Virus record (IMG/VR): IMGVR_UViG_3300046820_000054
Coordinates: 1 to 24,736 of that record
Length of the DNA stretch: 24,736 nucleotides
Source: a virus
Strand: one strand, 5' to 3'
Under the pieces are notes generated by a model. It was given only the letters and a program-made list of their open reading frames with translations, was not told the origin of the DNA and ran no database searches. The position numbers and the translations under genes are program-made. Every line of letters begins with the position of its first letter. Position 1 is the stretch's first letter. This document shows, piece by piece, positions 12,935 through 19,348 of the stretch.

Positions 12935-12966
12935 AACAGTCCTCAAGGAGTTTGTCTTATTTTCGC

Positions 12967-12993
12967 ACAAAAAAAGAGGACATACAAGTCCTC
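12967..12993 (-). terminator. Strong intrinsic terminator
   Basis: On the minus strand AGAGGAC (12993-12987) pairs perfectly with GTCCTCT (12980-12974) around a 6-nt loop, followed immediately by TTTTTTT. It separates the regulatory and recombination genes on the right from the late virion genes on the left. No convincing sigma70 promoter was found between it and the ATG at 12934, so late expression may depend on antitermination or an unrecognised promoter (inference). Confidence 0.85.
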
Positions 12994-13008
12994 TAAAACC
13001 TTGGCAAC

Positions 13009-14858: not shown

Positions 14859-15004
14859 GTCTTCACCTGTAAAGAAATAGGGATGTAGATGCAAGCCAAG
14901 TCCTTGGAACTTTTTACATTCACATAGAACTTGGCATCAGCAACCAGTCTTTTACAGTTCTGGCACTTAACACCAATTAAAACTGGCTTGCATCCCAATA
15001 ACAT
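14855..15004 (-). CDS. Small Com-like CxxC protein (49 aa)
   Basis: A 49-codon frame begins with ATG 15004 that overlaps the upstream stop (TAATG) and ends with a TGA overlapping the next ATG. This tight fit on both sides argues that it is real. The product, starting MLLGCKPVLIGVKCQNCKRL, has CxxC (CQNC) plus single cysteines near each end, resembling the N-terminal half of the Mu Com-type zinc finger. The second CxxC pair of a full ribbon is missing. Function unknown. Confidence 0.6.
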   Translation of the reverse strand: MLLGCKPVLIGVKCQNCKRLVADAKFYVNVKSSKDLACIYIPISLQVKT

Positions 15005-15267
15005 TAGATTGCTCTCATGTCGTAGTCAACACTTGCGGAATGGTCTGATTCTTCAAGCAGGTGGCTTGACAGCATCATCGTGCCACGCATTTCAATCTCT
15101 ACAAATTGCTCATCAGACAGCAAAGAGAAAACGCTCGTGCCCTCGTAATGGATGGACTTAAGATTCTCAGCGTATGTACCTTCCTCGTCCATCTCGTATC
15201 CCAAGACGCATTGCACAGTCTCGTCACCAGCACCAGTAGTTGTTTCAAATTTGAATTCGTATTCCAT
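15004..15267 (-). CDS. Small acidic phage protein, unknown (87 aa)
   Basis: An acidic protein starting MEYEFKFETTTGAGDETVQC. It looks like a small beta sheet followed by a helix with SLLSDEQFVEIEMRGTMML. No recognised domain. The ATG has a good ribosome site (AAGGA, 7 nt before ATG) that is part of a 31-bp element shared with the plus-strand operon (see 15275-15305). It is the second gene of the transcript starting near 15570. Confidence 0.65.
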   Translation of the reverse strand: MEYEFKFETTTGAGDETVQCVLGYEMDEEGTYAENLKSIHYEGTSVFSLLSDEQFVEIEMRGTMMLSSHLLEESDHSASVDYDMRAI

Positions 15268-15274
15268 GATTTTT

Positions 15275-15305
15275 TCCTTAAAAGTGGGGGACTAAGCCCC
15301 CTGTT
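15275..15305 (-). promoter_or_regulatory. Repeated G/C hairpin plus Shine-Dalgarno element, minus-strand copy
   Basis: Minus strand: AACAGGGGGCTTAGTCCCCC followed by ACTTTTAAGGA. GGGGG (15301-15297) pairs with CCCCC (15290-15286) around a 6-nt loop, and the Shine-Dalgarno AAGGA of the 87-aa gene follows 7 nt later. A nearly identical element lies on the plus strand at 19070-19099 (28 matching columns of 31 by hand alignment). There is no U-run, so it is not a standard terminator. It could stabilise mRNA, mark a processing site or modulate translation of the following gene. Confidence 0.7.
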
Positions 15306-15308
15306 AAA

Positions 15309-15530
15309 TTAGTTAAGAATTAAGCGACCAGTCAAACCCCTAGACTTCAAGCAATCAATTGCGTTTTGGATTGCCTCTCTACGAGAATGACCATAGAAAA
15401 CTGGAGGCACATTCGTATCTGGCAAAGCACAATCGAATTCAACTATCCAAGCTGGAGGAACAGTAGCCCGAATACGAGGGTTGTATTGTTCTTGTTGAAA
15501 GTAGCAATCTGCGTAGAATTTGTTTGACAT
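15309..15530 (-). CDS. Small hypothetical protein, first gene of a regulated unit (73 aa)
   Basis: The 73-residue product starts MSNKFYADCYFQQEQYNPRI and has a strand-rich centre (ATVPPAWIVEFDCAL). A helix with GHSRREAIQNAIDCLKSRGL follows, then a short TGRLILN end. The strand-strand-strand-helix-strand layout resembles small HicB-like or dsRBD-like folds, but no motif is decisive. It is the first gene after the 93-bp repeated promoter-leader and is followed by the repeated hairpin. Its counterpart in the plus-strand unit is the unrelated 42-aa gene at 18936. Function unknown. Confidence 0.65.
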   Translation of the reverse strand: MSNKFYADCYFQQEQYNPRIRATVPPAWIVEFDCALPDTNVPPVFYGHSRREAIQNAIDCLKSRGLTGRLILN

Positions 15531-15537
15531 GACTTAA

Positions 15538-15630
15538 TCCTTAAAAGTACCCTTGCGAATTGCTTGGGCTGATGTGATTGTATAGTTTTCTCAACACTTT
15601 GTTGAAAAATATATGTAAGTATTTACCCTA
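15538..15630 (-). promoter_or_regulatory. 93-bp promoter-leader repeat, minus-strand copy
   Basis: Minus strand from TAGGGTAAAT (15630) to AAGGA (15538). A -10 box TACAAT lies at 15582-15577, with a weak -35 (TTCAAC at 18 bp, or TCAACA at 17 bp). An inverted repeat TCAACA-aag-TGTTGA (15605-15591) covers the -35 and upstream spacer and is a candidate operator. Downstream, AGCCCAAGCAATTCGC then AGGGT can form a short CCC/GGG stem before the ribosome site. A plus-strand copy at 18836-18928 matches in about 75 of 95 aligned columns. The element begins inside the ninB stop codon region. Confidence 0.75.
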
Positions 15631-16027
15631 GATCGATTCCGTTGTTTGCAGCCCACGAGTAAAGCCACTCAATAAACTCGTTTGCCATTTCTTTGGTGAA
15701 GTTTCTTGTCTGAAAGCCTAGCTGGACAATTCCAGAGCCGTCCAGATTTGGGACTACCTTTCCTTGGATGTTCTCTACCTCACGCAAGTATTGGTCAACA
15801 AGTAAGCGCTTCCAGTCCTCGGCAGACCACTTAGCGCCCATGTGCTGCGCTTGTTTGGCAATATCACCAATCATGGCGTGATACTTTTCCTCTTGCTCTC
15901 TGGTTTTACTGACCAACTTAATTTCCATTGTTAGATGTTTGCCAGCATCCAAGGCTTTGGTTATCTTGTCCCAATGAAGACGAATACTGGTTTTCGCCTG
16001 TTCTGTACTTGTCAGGTGAATAATCAT
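15623..16027 (-). CDS. ninB: NinB-like recombination protein
   Basis: The 134-residue protein has the NinB order of features. An N-terminal strand-helix (IIHLTSTEQAKTSIRLHWDK) is followed by a strand with GKHLTMEIKLVSKTREQEEK, a helix YHAMIGDIAKQAQHMGAKWS, and AEDWKRLLVDQYLREVE. The substrate-binding strand has VPNLDGSGIVQLGFQTRNFT, and a final helix has KEMANEFIEWLYSWAANNGI. NinB of lambda (Orf) binds single-stranded DNA and helps load recombination proteins. It overlaps the downstream-acting nuclease gene region by 4 nt at its start, and ends at the 93-bp regulatory repeat. Together with ERF and SSB-like genes on the plus strand it forms the recombination set. Confidence 0.85.
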   Translation of the reverse strand: MIIHLTSTEQAKTSIRLHWDKITKALDAGKHLTMEIKLVSKTREQEEKYHAMIGDIAKQAQHMGAKWSAEDWKRLLVDQYLREVENIQGKVVPNLDGSGIVQLGFQTRNFTKEMANEFIEWLYSWAANNGIDLG

Positions 16028-16290
16028 TTAACTACTCCGATCATTCGTAATGCCGCTTCTGGGCTATCTATTCTTGCCAAGGTACTTCCAGACCAATTCT
16101 CGAAAAAGTCGGTTTGTAGCTTGGTTAAGCGCTTTTTAGAGTCTGTTTTGATCTCCACCAAGAAAGTATGACCCTTGTAGCCAACCAAAAGATCAACTGG
16201 TAAGCCAATAATCCAGACGTATGCGCCAGCACCTCGCAAGGCTGAGACTATTTGTTCTTGGTTAGCATCTACCCTAGCTGCGTATCTCAT
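16024..16290 (-). CDS. PD-(D/E)xK small nuclease, resolvase-like (88 aa)
   Basis: This 88-residue protein has the compact PD-(D/E)xK pattern. E12 lies in RVDANQEQIVSALRGAGAYV, D33 in GLPVDLLVG, E46-x-K48 in TFLVEIKTDS, and Q59 in TKLQTDFFENW. Active-site order (E, D, ExK, Q) and the size fit VRR-NUC or Holliday-junction-resolvase-like phage nucleases. It probably processes recombination or replication intermediates. It lies between ninB and a small unknown gene, with ATGA overlaps at both ends. Confidence 0.8.
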   Translation of the reverse strand: MRYAARVDANQEQIVSALRGAGAYVWIIGLPVDLLVGYKGHTFLVEIKTDSKKRLTKLQTDFFENWSGSTLARIDSPEAALRMIGVVK

Positions 16291-16499
16291 TCGAATGTCC
16301 CATCTTTAATCATGTTCATGTAGGTGCGGATACGATCTCTAGCGCCAGAGCCATAGATTCGTTCTGCTCTCTCTAGCCGACCACGGACAAAGTCACGATC
16401 TTTGTTTGTTTCCCAAGTGCGATAGAGTTCCCGAGCTTCTGCTTGCTCGAGGATTACCCTATCGCTTGGGTTTTCTACATTACGCCTGCTGAATGTCAC
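16287..16499 (-). CDS. Small hypothetical arginine-rich protein (70 aa)
   Basis: A 70-residue, charged helical protein starting MTFSRRNVENPSDRVILEQA, with EARELYRTW and GRLERAERIYGSGARDRIRT. The middle (R.L..AER..G..A...R....) resembles small helical phage proteins placed next to recombination nucleases, but no family is assigned with confidence. It overlaps the next gene in an ATGA junction and the upstream 37-aa gene by 20 nt. Confidence 0.6.
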   Translation of the reverse strand: MTFSRRNVENPSDRVILEQAEARELYRTWETNKDRDFVRGRLERAERIYGSGARDRIRTYMNMIKDGTFE

Positions 16500-16593
16500 C
16501 AGTTAACTCCAATGCTTTGTTTATGAGGTGTAGAGGATAAGGTACGCCATCACGCACCTTGTCTAGTAGTTTCATGGCTTCATAGTGACTCAC
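16480..16593 (-). CDS. Tiny protein with GTG start (37 aa)
   Basis: A 37-codon frame starts at GTG 16593, preceded by GGAGAATCCTAA (GGAG at a good distance). The product is MSHYEAMKLLDKVRDGVPYP, then LHLINKALELTGDIQQA. The pattern EA..LLD.VR.G..YP...IN.AL.LTGD is familiar as a very small phage protein of unknown role (from memory). An internal ATG at 16575 is an alternative start. It overlaps the methyltransferase end by 14 nt and the next gene by 20 nt. Confidence 0.55.
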   Translation of the reverse strand: MSHYEAMKLLDKVRDGVPYPLHLINKALELTGDIQQA

Positions 16594-17401
16594 TTAGGAT
16601 TCTCCATGCTGTTGCAGCGCAAAGTGGAACTTGTCCATTTCCAATGGCTTTAAGTCTGTCCACCCTAGCGGCCACCCCATCAGCCACTCTACCCACGTTG
16701 GGTTCAGTATCCCACCAGTCTTGTTCTTGTCTATTAAAACAACTGTTCCAAGACCCGGTGACTGTCTCTTGAACTCTGATGGGCTTCCCTTCTCGTTTGA
16801 GTTGTGACAAGTTGGTGTAGGAAATTTCTCTTGTCTTTTCTTTAATGCTTTTCTGCTGTTGCTCCCACCATCTAATCCTGTCGTGTTGGGCGTGTGGAAG
16901 CTGTCCACGCCATTTGGCGACAATCCAGATTCTGTCCCTCTGATGGTTTGCTCCAACATCCGCTGCTCCCAACACTCCCCATCTCGCATCAAACCCCATT
17001 GAGGCCAAGTCTCCGAGAACTCGTCCAAGTCCCCTAGAAGTGAGCATTGGTGAGTTTTCCACGAACACGAATCTAGGTCGTACTTCGTGAATGATCCTCG
17101 CCATTTCTCCCCACATTCCAGATCGTTCTCCGTCAATTCCGACACCTTTTCCTGCGGCTGAGATGTCTTGGCATGGAAACCCGCCAGATACAACGTCAAC
17201 AATTCCCTTCCAAGGTCGTCCGTCAAAGGTTTGAACATCATCCCAAATCGGGAAAGGCGGGAGAACTTTGTCATTTTGTCTGGCGCACAGTACGCTTGCT
17301 GGGTATTGCTCCCATTCAACGGCACAGACTGTTCTCCAACCAAGGAGGTGTCCACCAAGTATTCCTCCACCAGCGCCTGCGAAAAGAGCCAACTCATTCA
17401 T
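16580..17401 (-). CDS. DNA cytosine-C5 methyltransferase
   Basis: The 273-residue product has the C5-methyltransferase motifs in order: motif I FAGAGGGILG (7-16), motif IV GGFPCQDIS (73-81) with catalytic C77, and motif VI ENSP (115-118; the usual ENV is altered but the Glu is kept). Motif VIII is QRDRIWIVA (154-162), and the motif X region is RLKAIGNGQVP (249-259). The target-recognition region (about 165-240) is short, as in other phage enzymes. It methylates cytosine, probably to evade host restriction; no partner nuclease is nearby. The start overlaps the DUF1376 gene stop (ATGA). The whole coding region is also open in a second frame (16594-17397). Confidence 0.93.
   Translation of the reverse strand: MNELALFAGAGGGILGGHLLGWRTVCAVEWEQYPASVLCARQNDKVLPPFPIWDDVQTFDGRPWKGIVDVVSGGFPCQDISAAGKGVGIDGERSGMWGEMARIIHEVRPRFVFVENSPMLTSRGLGRVLGDLASMGFDARWGVLGAADVGANHQRDRIWIVAKWRGQLPHAQHDRIRWWEQQQKSIKEKTREISYTNLSQLKREGKPIRVQETVTGSWNSCFNRQEQDWWDTEPNVGRVADGVAARVDRLKAIGNGQVPLCAATAWRILSESL
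16594..17397 (-). CDS. Long ORF nested out of frame inside the methyltransferase gene (267 aa)
   Basis: A 267-codon frame, starting ATG 17397 only 4 nt after the methyltransferase ATG, spans nearly the whole methyltransferase gene in another frame. The shared upstream GGCGG lies 7 nt before this ATG but only 3 nt before the methyltransferase ATG. The translation includes SCSWKTHQCSLLGDLDEFSE (110-129), TWPQWGLMRDGECWE (130-144), FPTPT (192-196) and LNPTWVEWLMGWPLGWTDLK (231-250). I recall these blocks from proteins annotated in many phages and bacteria, sometimes near methyltransferases. It may be a real overprinted gene, or a shadow of conserved methyltransferase codons that is itself widely annotated. 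No known function. Confidence 0.45.
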   Translation of the reverse strand: MSWLFSQALVEEYLVDTSLVGEQSVPLNGSNTQQAYCAPDKMTKFSRLSRFGMMFKPLTDDLGRELLTLYLAGFHAKTSQPQEKVSELTENDLECGEKWRGSFTKYDLDSCSWKTHQCSLLGDLDEFSETWPQWGLMRDGECWEQRMLEQTIRGTESGLSPNGVDSFHTPNTTGLDGGSNSRKALKKRQEKFPTPTCHNSNEKGSPSEFKRQSPGLGTVVLIDKNKTGGILNPTWVEWLMGWPLGWTDLKPLEMDKFHFALQQHGES

Positions 17402-18171
17402 ACACCGCCTTTCATTTGTTTAGCAAATTTACGAATGTAATCAGGCATAGGAGCAGCCTTCTTTTCGTCAGCTTTAATCTTTTCCAAAGCCGCATCAGGC
17501 TCTTTGCTCATCGGAACTGTGAGCCTTATGTTGTCAGCAGGATTAACTTTCGGTGCGTTAGTGCTTCTAACCCAATTACGCCATGTAGCAAACCAATCTA
17601 GCTTGACACCTTTCTGACCTGCTACTGATGTCCAATAATCCTTGAACTGGTCAAATGTTTTGGTAGGGTGAAGTTCTGGTCTTGTTTGTTGACAGAACTC
17701 TTCCCATTCTTTTGGAAAATTGAAATTAGAAGCGAGGCGTTTGCCGAGTATCCTCTTATCTATTGGTTTATGGTTATTGGTTATTGGTTCTTGGTTAGGG
17801 TTATCTTTGGAAACCACTTGGGTTTCTTGTTGGTTAGCGTTTAGGTTTGACTTAGGTCTTCCACCTAGCTTTCCAACCTTACGATTACGCTCTGCTTTAG
17901 CTTGATAGTCAGCAATTGCCTTGTCGCAACGCTTGTGAAACCAACAATCATTCTCCATGTCAAACATAAAGAATTCCTCAAGTACTGTTTGAACTGCATT
18001 AATTTGTGCAGTCATCCGTATCCGTCTGGAAACCTCTTGGGTTTTGTTTGGGATAGGTTTTTCGCTTGTGTAGTACAAATCAAGTAAGCGCCTAAATGCC
18101 AAGTCCTCATAGGCTGACAAGTGCGCTGTGTCGTGAATGTAATCACTCACATGAAAAGAATAGTAGTGCAT
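17398..18171 (-). CDS. DUF1376-type phage replication protein
   Basis: ATG 18171 is preferred (GAGG ribosome site, family start MHYYSFHVSDYIHDTAHLSA); the frame extends to 18225 with a GTG. The N-terminal DUF1376 domain spans about 2-80, with YEDLAFRRLLDLYYTSEKPI. A basic linker follows (RNRKVGKLGGRPKSNLNANQ). The C-terminal domain (about 155-215) has WEEFCQQTRPELHPTKTFDQ and FKDYWTSVAGQKGVKLDWFA followed by TWRNWVR. The F..YW......DW..TW.NWV pattern resembles DnaT and phage O-type replication proteins that recruit the host helicase. It ends KQMKGGV, on the methyltransferase start. A likely promoter with direct repeats lies about 100 nt upstream. Confidence 0.8.
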   Translation of the reverse strand: MHYYSFHVSDYIHDTAHLSAYEDLAFRRLLDLYYTSEKPIPNKTQEVSRRIRMTAQINAVQTVLEEFFMFDMENDCWFHKRCDKAIADYQAKAERNRKVGKLGGRPKSNLNANQQETQVVSKDNPNQEPITNNHKPIDKRILGKRLASNFNFPKEWEEFCQQTRPELHPTKTFDQFKDYWTSVAGQKGVKLDWFATWRNWVRSTNAPKVNPADNIRLTVPMSKEPDAALEKIKADEKKAAPMPDYIRKFAKQMKGGV

Positions 18172-18241
18172 AAAGCATCCTCGCAAACCCTCCAGAAAAA
18201 AACAGTCGGCAGGTGGGAGGTTCACTTTTCGGCACGCTCAT
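18143..18241 (-). other. Possible 32-codon upstream ORF overlapping the replication gene start
   Basis: In the 5' leader, ATG 18241 opens a 32-codon frame (MSVPKSEPPTCRLFFSGGFA, then RMLYALLFFSCE). It crosses the replication gene start in another frame and stops at 18143. No clear ribosome site precedes it, and its ATG lies in the loop of a leader hairpin. It could influence translation of the replication protein, or be chance. Confidence 0.25.
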
Positions 18242-18252
18242 GACTTCGTGCC
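18231..18252 (-). promoter_or_regulatory. Hairpin in the 5' leader of the replication gene
   Basis: GGCACG (18252-18247 on the minus strand) pairs perfectly with CGTGCC (18236-18231) around a 10-nt loop. It lies about 12 nt downstream of the inferred transcription start of the promoter at 18271-18299 and 60 nt before the DUF1376 ATG. Purines, not Ts, follow it, so it is not a terminator. An operator or mRNA-stability element is possible. Confidence 0.5.
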
Positions 18253-18270
18253 TAGCCGTTGTTTCAAAAC

Positions 18271-18303
18271 ATTGTAAACTTAAAAAAGCCTTCTGTAAAC
18301 TTA
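18271..18303 (-). promoter_or_regulatory. Sigma70-type promoter with 21-bp-spaced direct repeats
   Basis: Minus strand: -35 TTTACA (18299-18294), 17-bp spacer, -10 TACAAT (18276-18271), each 5 of 6 consensus bases. The decamer TAAGTTTACA occurs twice, at 18303-18294 and 18282-18273, exactly 21 bp (two helical turns) apart, so the repeats cover both promoter boxes on the same DNA face. This is a good candidate operator for one of the two regulators encoded just upstream. It would drive the DUF1376, methyltransferase and downstream genes. The first repeat includes the stop codon of the preceding gene. Confidence 0.75.
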
Positions 18304-18651
18304 TTTATTTGCTGTGAAATTAGGATTCCCGCTATACAAGCGTCTAGCCTGTGCAGCCATCACTCGATACTCAGTAGGCGTAAAGATACCTTTAGCGTTC
18401 CGTATATCAAATGGGTTTAGCAAACAGCGCTTTTCCTCTGGTTTCTTAGCCTCGATTAACTGATCTGCAAGTGTGTACTGAGCAACCCAATGCTTTCCAG
18501 ACTTAACCAGTTCAGTCGTTAGCTTGCCTTGGTAGCGCAGTTTCTTCGCTGTAGACAGCACAGTAGCTTGTGGCATACCAGTTAGGTTAGCAACCTCTCT
18601 TGAGGTCAATGAGCCGTTTTGTAGGGCTTTGATTACTTGTGCTTGAGTCAT
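18301..18651 (-). CDS. Helix-turn-helix DNA-binding protein (116 aa)
   Basis: The N-terminal 60 residues look like a winged helix: MTQAQVIKALQNGSLTSREV, then ANLTGMPQATVLSTAKKLRY (the helix-turn-helix) and a wing with GKLTTELVKSGKHWVAQYTL. The C-terminal part carries cysteine-containing RCLLNPFDIRNAKGIFTPTE and a helix RVMAAQARRLYSG. It follows the cro-like gene with an ATGA overlap, so the two are co-expressed. A second transcription regulator, or a replication initiator analogous to genes after cro in lambdoid phages, are both possible. Its stop codon lies inside the direct-repeat promoter that drives the next unit. Confidence 0.7.
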   Translation of the reverse strand: MTQAQVIKALQNGSLTSREVANLTGMPQATVLSTAKKLRYQGKLTTELVKSGKHWVAQYTLADQLIEAKKPEEKRCLLNPFDIRNAKGIFTPTEYRVMAAQARRLYSGNPNFTANK

Positions 18652-18800
18652 TTAAACCAATCTGGTCTTAGTTCTTTGAGTTGATAAAGGCGCAATAGAG
18701 GAATGGTCTTCCATTGGTGAACGGCAGACCTTTCTATTCCAAAGATACGAGCAAGCGCACTTTGTGAGCCTGCAAGTGTGATAGCAGTTTGTTTATCCAT
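18648..18800 (-). CDS. Cro-like repressor (50 aa)
   Basis: A 50-codon frame from ATG 18800 to TGA 18648 encodes MDKQTAITLAGSQSALARIF, GIERSAVHQWKTIPLLRLYQ and LKELRPDWFK. This is the P22-Cro/YdaS type helix-turn-helix: an A...GSQ.ALA..(F/L)GI...AV..W..IP..R...L pattern with the recognition helix at about 24-30. It is divergent from the plus-strand operon, so this is the genetic switch region. The -10 box ends only 6 nt before the ATG and no ribosome site exists, so its mRNA is probably leaderless. A palindrome overlaps its promoter, consistent with autorepression. Confidence 0.85.
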   Translation of the reverse strand: MDKQTAITLAGSQSALARIFGIERSAVHQWKTIPLLRLYQLKELRPDWFK

Positions 18801-18806
18801 CTAAAC

Positions 18807-18830
18807 AGTATAGCAAACAAATTATTTGTT
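18807..18830 (-). promoter_or_regulatory. cro-like gene promoter (extended -10) with palindromic operator
   Basis: On the minus strand TGCTATACT (18815-18807) is an extended -10 element. Upstream, within the spacer, AACAAAT-A-ATTTGTT (18830-18816) is a perfect palindrome with 7-bp arms. The -35 region is poor (AAAACA at 17 bp), as often seen with extended -10 promoters. A repressor dimer bound to the palindrome would block this promoter and lie 30 bp from the plus-strand -35. Confidence 0.7.
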
Positions 18831-18835
18831 GTTTT

Positions 18836-18928
18836 TAGGGTAAACACCTACATAAATATATTGAGTAATGTTCAGAAACCTTTACAATCCATCTTAGCCC
18901 AAGCAATTCGTGAGGGTCTTTTTAAGGA
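18836..18928 (+). promoter_or_regulatory. 93-bp promoter-leader repeat, plus-strand copy (early rightward promoter)
   Basis: -35 TTGAGT (18861-18866), 16-bp spacer, -10 TACAAT (18883-18888). Transcription would start near 18895, at AGCCCAAGCAATTCG, the block identical in both copies. CCC (18898-18900) can pair with GGG (18914-18916), and a G-U pair is kept in both copies. The Shine-Dalgarno AAGGAG follows at 18924. The opposite-strand copy is at 15538-15630. This promoter drives the ERF/SSB-like operon and faces away from the cro-like gene. Confidence 0.8.
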
Positions 18929-18935
18929 GTCAGAA

Positions 18936-19064
18936 ATGACAGATTCACAAGTTATCGCCTCTGTAATTCGTTACCTCAAAGCTGAAGCTGGTGCAGTTTC
19001 TTGCAATGTGCATTTGCCTAGTGGTAAGAATGTCGTTGTTTACGCTGATGGCAGAGTCGAATAA
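18936..19064 (+). CDS. Small protein, first gene of the plus-strand operon (42 aa)
   Basis: ATG 18936 is chosen because AAGGAG lies 7 nt before it; the longer frame from 18789 would run through the promoter. The 42-residue product starts MTDSQVIASVIRYLKAEAGA, followed by two strands (VSCNVHLPSG, KNVVVYADGRVE). Helix-strand-strand layout; no recognised family. It sits between the 93-bp leader repeat and the repeated hairpin, the position occupied by the 73-aa gene in the minus-strand unit. Confidence 0.65.
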   Translation: MTDSQVIASVIRYLKAEAGAVSCNVHLPSGKNVVVYADGRVE

Positions 19065-19069
19065 AAATC

Positions 19070-19099
19070 AATAGGGGGCTAGTCCCCCACATTTAAGGA
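19070..19099 (+). promoter_or_regulatory. Repeated G/C hairpin plus Shine-Dalgarno element, plus-strand copy
   Basis: AATAGGGGGCTAGTCCCCC, then ACATTTAAGGA: GGGGG (19074-19078) pairs with CCCCC (19084-19088) around 5 nt, and AAGGA at 19095 serves the 29-aa gene. It is the partner of the minus-strand element at 15275-15305 and has the same place in its unit, right after the first gene. Confidence 0.7.
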
Positions 19100-19106
19100 A
19101 ATCAAA

Positions 19107-19196
19107 ATGAACTTCGAGAAAATCATGGATTACGTTACAGCAGTCTCAATTGGTGTTGGCATGGCAGTTTTACTGGTTGCATGGTGGTCAACATGA
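19107..19196 (+). CDS. Single-span membrane micro-protein (29 aa)
   Basis: A 30-codon frame with a clear ribosome site (AAGGA, 7 nt before the ATG) encodes MNFEKIMDYVTAVSIGVGMA followed by VLLVAWWST. Residues 9-27 form one hydrophobic helix with a short charged N-terminus, so an inner-membrane peptide is likely. The stop overlaps the next start (ATGA), placing it firmly in the operon. Early tiny membrane proteins of phages can affect host membrane proteins or superinfection, but no function can be assigned here. Confidence 0.65.
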   Translation: MNFEKIMDYVTAVSIGVGMAVLLVAWWST

Positions 19197-19348
19197 ACAC
19201 ACGATTCTTAACCCACGTTCGTAAGATATTTGCCACCTACGATGCCCCTCCAGAGGTCATTAGAGCCTACCAAAAGCAATGGGTAAGGTCAGTTAGGCAC
19301 TTAGGTGATAAATGGCTTGTAGCAAAGCCTATCGAAAGAATCCAATGA
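19193..19348 (+). CDS. Small basic protein (51 aa)
   Basis: ATG 19193 overlaps the preceding stop. The product MNTRFLTHVRKIFATYDAPP continues with EVIRAYQKQWVRSVRHLGDK and WLVAKPIERIQ. It is basic and tryptophan-containing; RFLTH.RK.F....AP......NQ..W..(A/S)VR.LG..WL is familiar from phages of Burkholderiales (from memory). Function unknown. Its stop overlaps the next ATG. Confidence 0.65.
   Translation: MNTRFLTHVRKIFATYDAPPEVIRAYQKQWVRSVRHLGDKWLVAKPIERIQ

Follow-up and report, generated by a model that had tools for sequence, protein, structure and literature searches.

Lambda and HK022 carry one RNA signal, nut or put, at the 5′ ends of two opposite early operons. In a lambda-type nut, the transcribed leader contains boxA and then boxB, and the early operon encodes an N-like arginine-rich antiterminator; put of HK022 is formed by two adjacent stem-loops of about 65–70 nt. 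A 5′ stem-loop also stabilizes the ompA mRNA. Here we analyzed a 24,736-nt stretch of viral DNA (positions 1 to 24,736 of IMG/VR record IMGVR_UViG_3300046820_000054; hereafter the window), in which two opposite early operons appear to start with one short hairpin leader, at locus A near ninB and at locus B beside a Cro gene. Among described systems, the 5′-terminal stem-loops of papA mRNA, or of bla mRNA with an added hairpin, lie at or near the 5′ end upstream of an open ribosome site, and such hairpins can stabilize mRNA and impede RppH (PMC3997798). In the LoaP-dependent dfn and mln operons, a small near-identical hairpin occurs in the leaders of both operons (PMC12691694). In the portions of the literature consulted, the nearest published idea found was the SAS/ESAS of Cluster K mycobacteriophages, a short in-genome repeat at the starts of non-structural genes that contains the ribosome site, precedes different genes, and at about half of its sites is itself preceded by an inverted repeat (PMC3203893). 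SAS sites, with the sequence GGGATAGGAGCCC, are many per genome and, in the excerpted account, are neither described as promoter-tied nor given more than little support as RNA hairpins by their authors (PMC3203893). The phage leader differs in having two sites per genome, predicted transcription starts, compensating stem changes, and a sequence other than GGGATAGGAGCCC. A search mainly in open-access literature found no published description of this leader element, as far as the excerpted sources reach.

The original prediction had aligned by hand, with 75 of 95 columns matching, a 93-bp segment of the minus strand (A, 15630-15538, TAGGGTAAA...AAGGA) and one of the plus strand (B, 18836-18928, TAGGGTAAA...AAGGA). 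This inverted pair was confirmed by blastn with 79% identity over 93 bp (E 3.9e-16), the same figure as the hand count, and blastn of the whole window returned these two segments as its only matching places. The global alignment of A and B scored 53, compared with a mean of -0.4 (standard deviation 4.2) and a maximum of 15.5 in 2000 dinucleotide shuffles, so the similarity is not chance-like. When the window was scanned on both strands in 10-base steps, the top 12 windows for either copy all overlapped A or B. The AGCCCAAGCAATTCG block is the same in both copies, TACAAT lies at 15582-15577 (minus) in A and at 18883-18888 (plus) in B, and the local alignment continues a few bases beyond the start codon. 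The predicted promoters, TCAACA-17 nt-TACAAT at A (15577-15605, minus) and TTGAGT-16 nt-TACAAT at B (18861-18888, plus), are weak and sigma-70-like, each matching 9 of the 12 consensus bases. Because promoter-like sites in a scan of the window were not commoner than in shuffles (21 versus 27.0), these two calls rest on conservation and not on the scan.

The leader RNA from the predicted +1 to the Shine-Dalgarno (SD) site can form a hairpin, a feature absent from the original prediction. At B, the predicted +1 A at 18896 is followed by the stem-loop GCCC-AA-GC-AATTC-GT-GA-GGGT at 18897-18917 (element 18896-18917, plus) and by an AU-rich spacer with the SD AAGGA at 18924-18928 (together 18918-18928, plus). 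At A, the predicted +1 A at 15570 is followed by GCCC-AA-GC-AATTC-GC-AA-GGGT at 15569-15549 (element 15549-15570, minus) and by a spacer with AAGGA at 15542-15538 (together 15538-15548, minus). The leader of about 33–36 nt thereby comprises a single hairpin of 21–24 nt, then the spacer and SD, and the hairpin starts one base after +1 as predicted. In 257 leaders, the gap between the -10 hexamer and the +1 A was 6 nt in 211, 7 nt in 43, and 4 nt in 3; with +1 left unconstrained, A was found in 61 of the 67 Cro-adjacent regions, and the other six matched with G, apparently one base off. The stem consists of GCCC/GGGU and zero to two more pairs, an A-rich inner loop, an R-C/G-Y segment, and a loop of five bases. 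The hairpin was found in five of five leaders by single-sequence folding.

Base pairing in 36 hairpin variants, aligned by hand with bases placed by arm length, was compared with shuffles that ignore kinship. Pair 5-22 was formed in all 20 variants having it (expected 14.3; 1 of 5000 shuffles was as good) and occurs as A-U, U-A, G-C, and G.U. Pair 9-17 was formed in all 36 (expected 29.4; 0 of 5000 shuffles), occurring as A-U, G-C, and G.U and never as A.C. Pair 10-16 was C-G in 35 variants and A-U in one, which is present at three loci (expected 34.1; p 0.027). Only base combinations count as evidence here, because the search pattern already fixed A at +1, set a purine opposite a pyrimidine at 9-17, and limited the outer pair to G or A facing T or C. 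In all variants the loop ends with a pyrimidine, and in 35 of 36 it reads ANNNY.

Related phages, in which the original prediction had proposed to look for further copies, indeed hold leaders at the same two places in many cases. The pattern AGCCCAAGCAATTCG-NN-AGGGT matched at least 119 IMG/VR stretches, and two further hairpin-type patterns gave 72 and 12 IMG/VR matches. We assembled 252 partly overlapping loci (2.33 Mb), fetched mostly by leader or Erf patterns; a loose leader pattern found 325 leaders in 211 of them and none in the same loci reversed, and 208 distinct leader-plus-start sequences were obtained. Among the 80 Erf-fetched loci, 40 had a parsed leader at A, B, or both, and 28 of the remaining 40 had TGGCAYATTA, a sister-clade promoter motif, in the 1.5 kb preceding Erf. 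The hairpin pattern fitted all 67 distinct Cro-adjacent regions, which were chosen by position, and 29 of 29 ninB-adjacent regions, many of them from loci that the A pattern had retrieved. A fairer test of A was provided by 46 new loci fetched with B-type patterns: an A leader within three mismatches was present in 16 of 16 loci with at least 4.5 kb of room, in 6 of 15 with 2.2–4.5 kb (none in the other nine), and in 0 of 15 with less than 2.2 kb. Both copies thus occur across the clade and the pair is an old feature, which does not support the recent duplication that the original prediction had offered as one explanation of the conserved leader. Inverted pairs were seen in few Erf-set loci by self-comparison because the B hairpins diverge. 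The type-I pattern, to which other hairpin types are invisible, matched one to three times per record in 28 records; a third leader-like match 1–2.2 kb upstream of A in 8 of the 28 was rejected, as it reads as coding sequence of the primosomal protein, judging from its context in other loci.

The alternative explanation in the original prediction, selection on the leader, gained support from identities between loci, which were ungapped and position-sorted and used A leaders from loci not fetched by the A pattern. For 47 distinct A leaders, identity was 97% in the leader compared with 43% in the 60 bases upstream and 51% in the first 45 gene bases; for 72 B leaders, it was 72% in the leader, 51% upstream, and 44% at the gene start. 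The leaders compared had been recognized by the hairpin pattern, which favors the leader somewhat.

A palindromic box lies upstream of each promoter, TAGGGTAAATACTTA at A (15616-15630, minus), overlapping the end of ninB, and TAGGGTAAACACCTA at B (18836-18850, plus). All 53 loci with a P22_Cro gene had it at both promoters; among 10 loci lacking the gene, none had it at B and six had it at A (B and A, Fisher 7.8e-12 and 3.5e-4, respectively, figures that ignore kinship; the box pattern was set post hoc and had a background of 115 in 6107 stretches). The Cro-type gene of the window (18648-18800, minus; -10 TATACT at 18812-18807) is divergent from the B promoter, and its product belongs to the P22 Cro family PF14549 (38.4 bits; Pfam gathering cut-off 30.2). 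In all 67 regions, a -10-like hexamer stands only 5–6 nt ahead of the ATG of this gene, leaving no room for a leader, so the gene is probably leaderless; the locus resembles the P22 Cro family in having a divergent regulator adjoining the promoter and differs in this apparently leaderless gene. In the sister clade, the box was present at A in 13 of 13 loci examined and, by eye, at B in most, and tblastn did not find a Cro gene. The box binder may therefore be another protein. Control of both operons by one regulator, as the original prediction had suggested, is plausible given the boxes at A and B.

The genes behind the leaders differ among relatives. In the window, each operon has an extra gene, a second hairpin, and then a canonical first gene. 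At A these are a 73-aa gene (MSNKFYADCY..., 15309-15530, minus) whose family also occurs at B in relatives, the hairpin GGGGGCTTAGTCCCCC followed by TTTAAGGA (15286-15301, minus), and an acidic 87-aa gene beginning MEYEFKFETTTG... (15004-15267, minus); at B, a 42-aa gene (MTDSQVIASV..., 18936-19064, plus), the hairpin GGGGGCTAGTCCCCC followed by TTTAAGGA (19074-19088, plus), and a 29-aa membrane-like peptide (MNFEKIMDY..., 19107-19196, plus). The second hairpins form another matching pair of the window, GGGGGCT(T)AGTCCCCC plus TTTAAGGA (15301-15286, minus, and 19074-19088, plus). With canonical genes recognized by their first residues and loci sorted by position, the first gene was canonical behind 68 of 90 leaders at A and 49 of 86 at B; another 26 leaders, not assignable to A or B, led the canonical A gene in 22 cases and an extra gene in 4. 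Extra genes numbered 63 (37 at B, 22 at A, 4 unassigned), three of them cut off. A second G-C-rich hairpin with an SD followed 36 of the 60 fully visible ones (23 B, 11 A, 2 unassigned) and in each case preceded a canonical gene, that of B for the 23 and that of A for the 11 and the 2 unassigned; it was lacking after 24 (13 B, 9 A, 2 unassigned), and in these cases the extra gene often runs into the following SD. The second hairpin also covaries (GGGGG/CCCCC, GGGGA/TCCCC), with a GAAA loop twice (L025 and L135). First-gene families common to A and B include MSKYFTNKEF, MKLYGINFF, MNKPTFTFN, and MSNKFYADCY/MTKLFNADCY, among others. As judged from these relatives, either leader can be followed by interchangeable first genes, and the two first genes of the window are extra cassettes, which the original prediction had not recognized. 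For the canonical A protein, AlphaFold modeled three strands together with one long helix (mean confidence 80), and this prediction had no PDB match at E 0.001. As a separate observation, a 51-aa basic protein (19193-19348, plus) is conserved in both clades and has a relative in MW202710; its AlphaFold model is helical with low confidence (64), and it has no family.

Downstream, the A operon is closed by a predicted intrinsic terminator (12969-12994, minus), abutted by a candidate late promoter with the extended -10 TGCGAAAAT (12959-12967, minus). Of 107 distinct regions, 104 had the terminator ahead of their first late gene, the exceptions being L044, L064, and L209; it lay about 60 nt upstream of that gene except in L097, L107, and L207, where the distance was another. 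The motif TGN[GT]A[AT]AAT occurred 31–34 nt before the ATG in 65 of 65 distinct 66-nt regions, 64 of which also had a T-run, against a background of 13 in 4775 stretches. The A operon thus resembles a self-contained set of small genes with an independent late promoter downstream of it, and since the terminator and promoter-like motif bound it, antitermination or readthrough is not required. No terminator-like site was found in the two leaders of the window or on the plus strand from the B leader to the end of the B operon.

Our preferred reading, to which we give a probability of roughly 0.45, is that shared operator, promoter, and 5′-capping hairpin form an expression platform for early accessory genes. 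Two opposite early promoters would carry one three-part module, a palindromic box, a sigma-70-like promoter, and a hairpin leader, with the hairpin beginning at about +2 and the leader finishing with an AU-rich SD site. A single regulator might bind both boxes and switch both operons jointly; the hairpin would close the mRNA 5′ end, hindering pyrophosphate removal and RNase E, and would leave the ribosome site free whatever gene follows, giving good expression of swapped-in genes, and the second hairpin of many cassettes would provide the next gene with a similar start. At the level of sequence, base-pair compensation, A/B homology, clade-wide pairing, box co-occurrence, exchangeable genes, and A-operon bounds are all in evidence. 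On the predicted start, the stem-loop lies at or near the 5′ end, as do the stabilizing stem-loops; its loop and inner loop are more constant and its closing pair odder than a plain cap needs, and stabilization is a prediction. In silico, the spacer, SD, and start codon had a mean unpaired probability of 0.672 compared with 0.599 when the hairpin was shuffled, and were more open in 176 of the 208 leaders. At B, the sister clade forms a 5′ hairpin of another sequence (20 distinct short leaders, longer ones left out), with stems beginning within 5 bases after TGGCAYATTA, and this suggests that shape matters over sequence at B. In the sister-clade loci L163, L173, L176, L179, and L197, the leader preceding the Erf operon has a much longer possible stem, GTGTTGAGC...GCTCAACAC in L163, that encloses further sequence and may belong to a larger structured RNA.

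Several observations weigh against the expression platform. Deleting the hairpin in silico left the ribosome site at least as open (0.692), so openness of the site does not account for the presence of a hairpin. Capping would depend on the RppH and RNase E of the host. At A, the sister clade has the box and no stable hairpin, the last 36 nt folding at 0 to -2.8 kcal/mol in 13 of 13 cases. The outer pair is G..U in 30 variants and A..C in 6 and never G-C or A-U, a restriction that plain capping does not predict; nor does it predict that the unpaired A's of the inner loop and of the first loop position are each constant in 35 of 36 variants. Of the 18 variants with pair 6-21, six show a C.A mismatch there, and the pair did no better than shuffles. 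Single-sequence fold z-scores were weak (-0.5 to -1.7), and the 17 type-II hairpins alone were 91.9% paired compared with 93.3% in shuffles (slid controls, 18–33%). RNAalifold on a mixed MAFFT alignment, which shifts the type I stem, recovered four pairs only.

The unpaired A's, the final loop pyrimidine, and the wobble-type outer pair in 36 of 36 variants are what would be expected under the chief rival, in which the leader hairpin is the site for a phage or host RNA-binding factor acting on both operons, a possibility also raised in the original prediction, either a translational regulator or a processive antitermination signal such as lambda nut, HK022 put, or LoaP dfn. We consider this rival doubtful, although the far greater constancy of the A leader than of its own flanks and of B agrees with it. 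The same 5′ signal on two opposite early operons recalls nut and put, and lambda boxB likewise has a GCCC...GGGC stem. The hairpin starts at the predicted +2, however, and leaves no room for boxA before it; compared with nut and put, the leader has a single short hairpin and a bounded A operon, and its one hairpin of 21–24 nt is not the paired structure of put. LoaP-type antitermination requires a small 5′-leader hairpin (PMC12691694), which favors the rival, but the dfn and mln leaders have a UNCG loop and a terminator inside, as far as the excerpted account goes (PMC12691694), whereas the loop of the phage hairpin has five bases, mostly ANNNY, and its leader contains no terminator, so it does not belong to the dfn type. 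The 51-aa basic protein could, as a guess, be the binder; among the window proteins scanned, a subset of the open reading frames, PHROGs and Pfam returned no N-like antiterminator, N proteins being short and divergent, and there was no N, Q, or NusG-like family. Further points against a bound factor are that the A-operon terminator and promoter-like motif make readthrough unnecessary, that the plus strand from the B leader to the end of the B operon offers no terminator to read through, and that the B hairpin varies widely.

A bolder form of factor recognition, which we hold to be unlikely, is that the leader represents a new cis-acting phage RNA class: a wobble-locked 5′ hairpin (outer pair G.U or A.C only) that combines an A-rich inner loop with the tip R-C-A-N-N-N-Y-G-Y would be read by a dedicated factor switching both early operons and would serve as a universal dock for exchangeable host-takeover genes. 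Database searches gave the leader no family. Rfam 15 returned no family match in the window, and none up to E 5 over 15200-15700; in 10 relatives, it gave one match, which was not at a leader. The 33-nt leader had no match in the phage collection.

Improbable, in our judgment, is the reading that the leader is mainly shared DNA for recombinational swapping of first genes between phages and loci, with the hairpin playing a minor part. Similar first genes at both A and B, an A leader that is 97% identical between two differing flanks, and an Erf-like annealing protein encoded by the phage all accord with it, but compensating stem changes and many B hairpin types are unexpected from homology alone, and 33 nt seems short for recombination. 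It is very improbable that the inverted repeat just past the start works instead at the DNA level, as an operator bound by a dimeric protein, with no role as RNA: its location would let a repressor block polymerase and a DNA dyad would also give compensating changes, but G.U-type combinations are tolerated (6-21, 9-17, 5-22), the wobble-only outer pair is left unexplained, and the arms, besides containing an inner loop, are short and not symmetric.

Neither the leader nor the portal protein pointed to a host: the leader had no match, and the portal protein no confirmed relative, in the genome contigs searched for one. Among 12 of 301 records, the nearest named isolate by portal was Methylophilales phage Venkman (56.6%). 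Elsewhere in the window, an int-alpA-like RNA (RF02996; 18262-18188, minus) sits between the Ren-like gene and the primosomal gene; it scored 32.5 bits (E 1.9e-5), below the gathering score of 35.8, and its counterpart in relative L102 (9390-9314) scored 37.6 bits, above it.

The leader offers a ready comparative data set: each genome has two loci, the hairpin occurs in 36 natural variants with compensating pairs, and in a sister clade the box is present while A lacks a stable hairpin. This material opens a test of whether the 5′ hairpin itself or recognition by a factor maintains expression, and of how a phage may hold expression constant while the genes behind its promoter swap.

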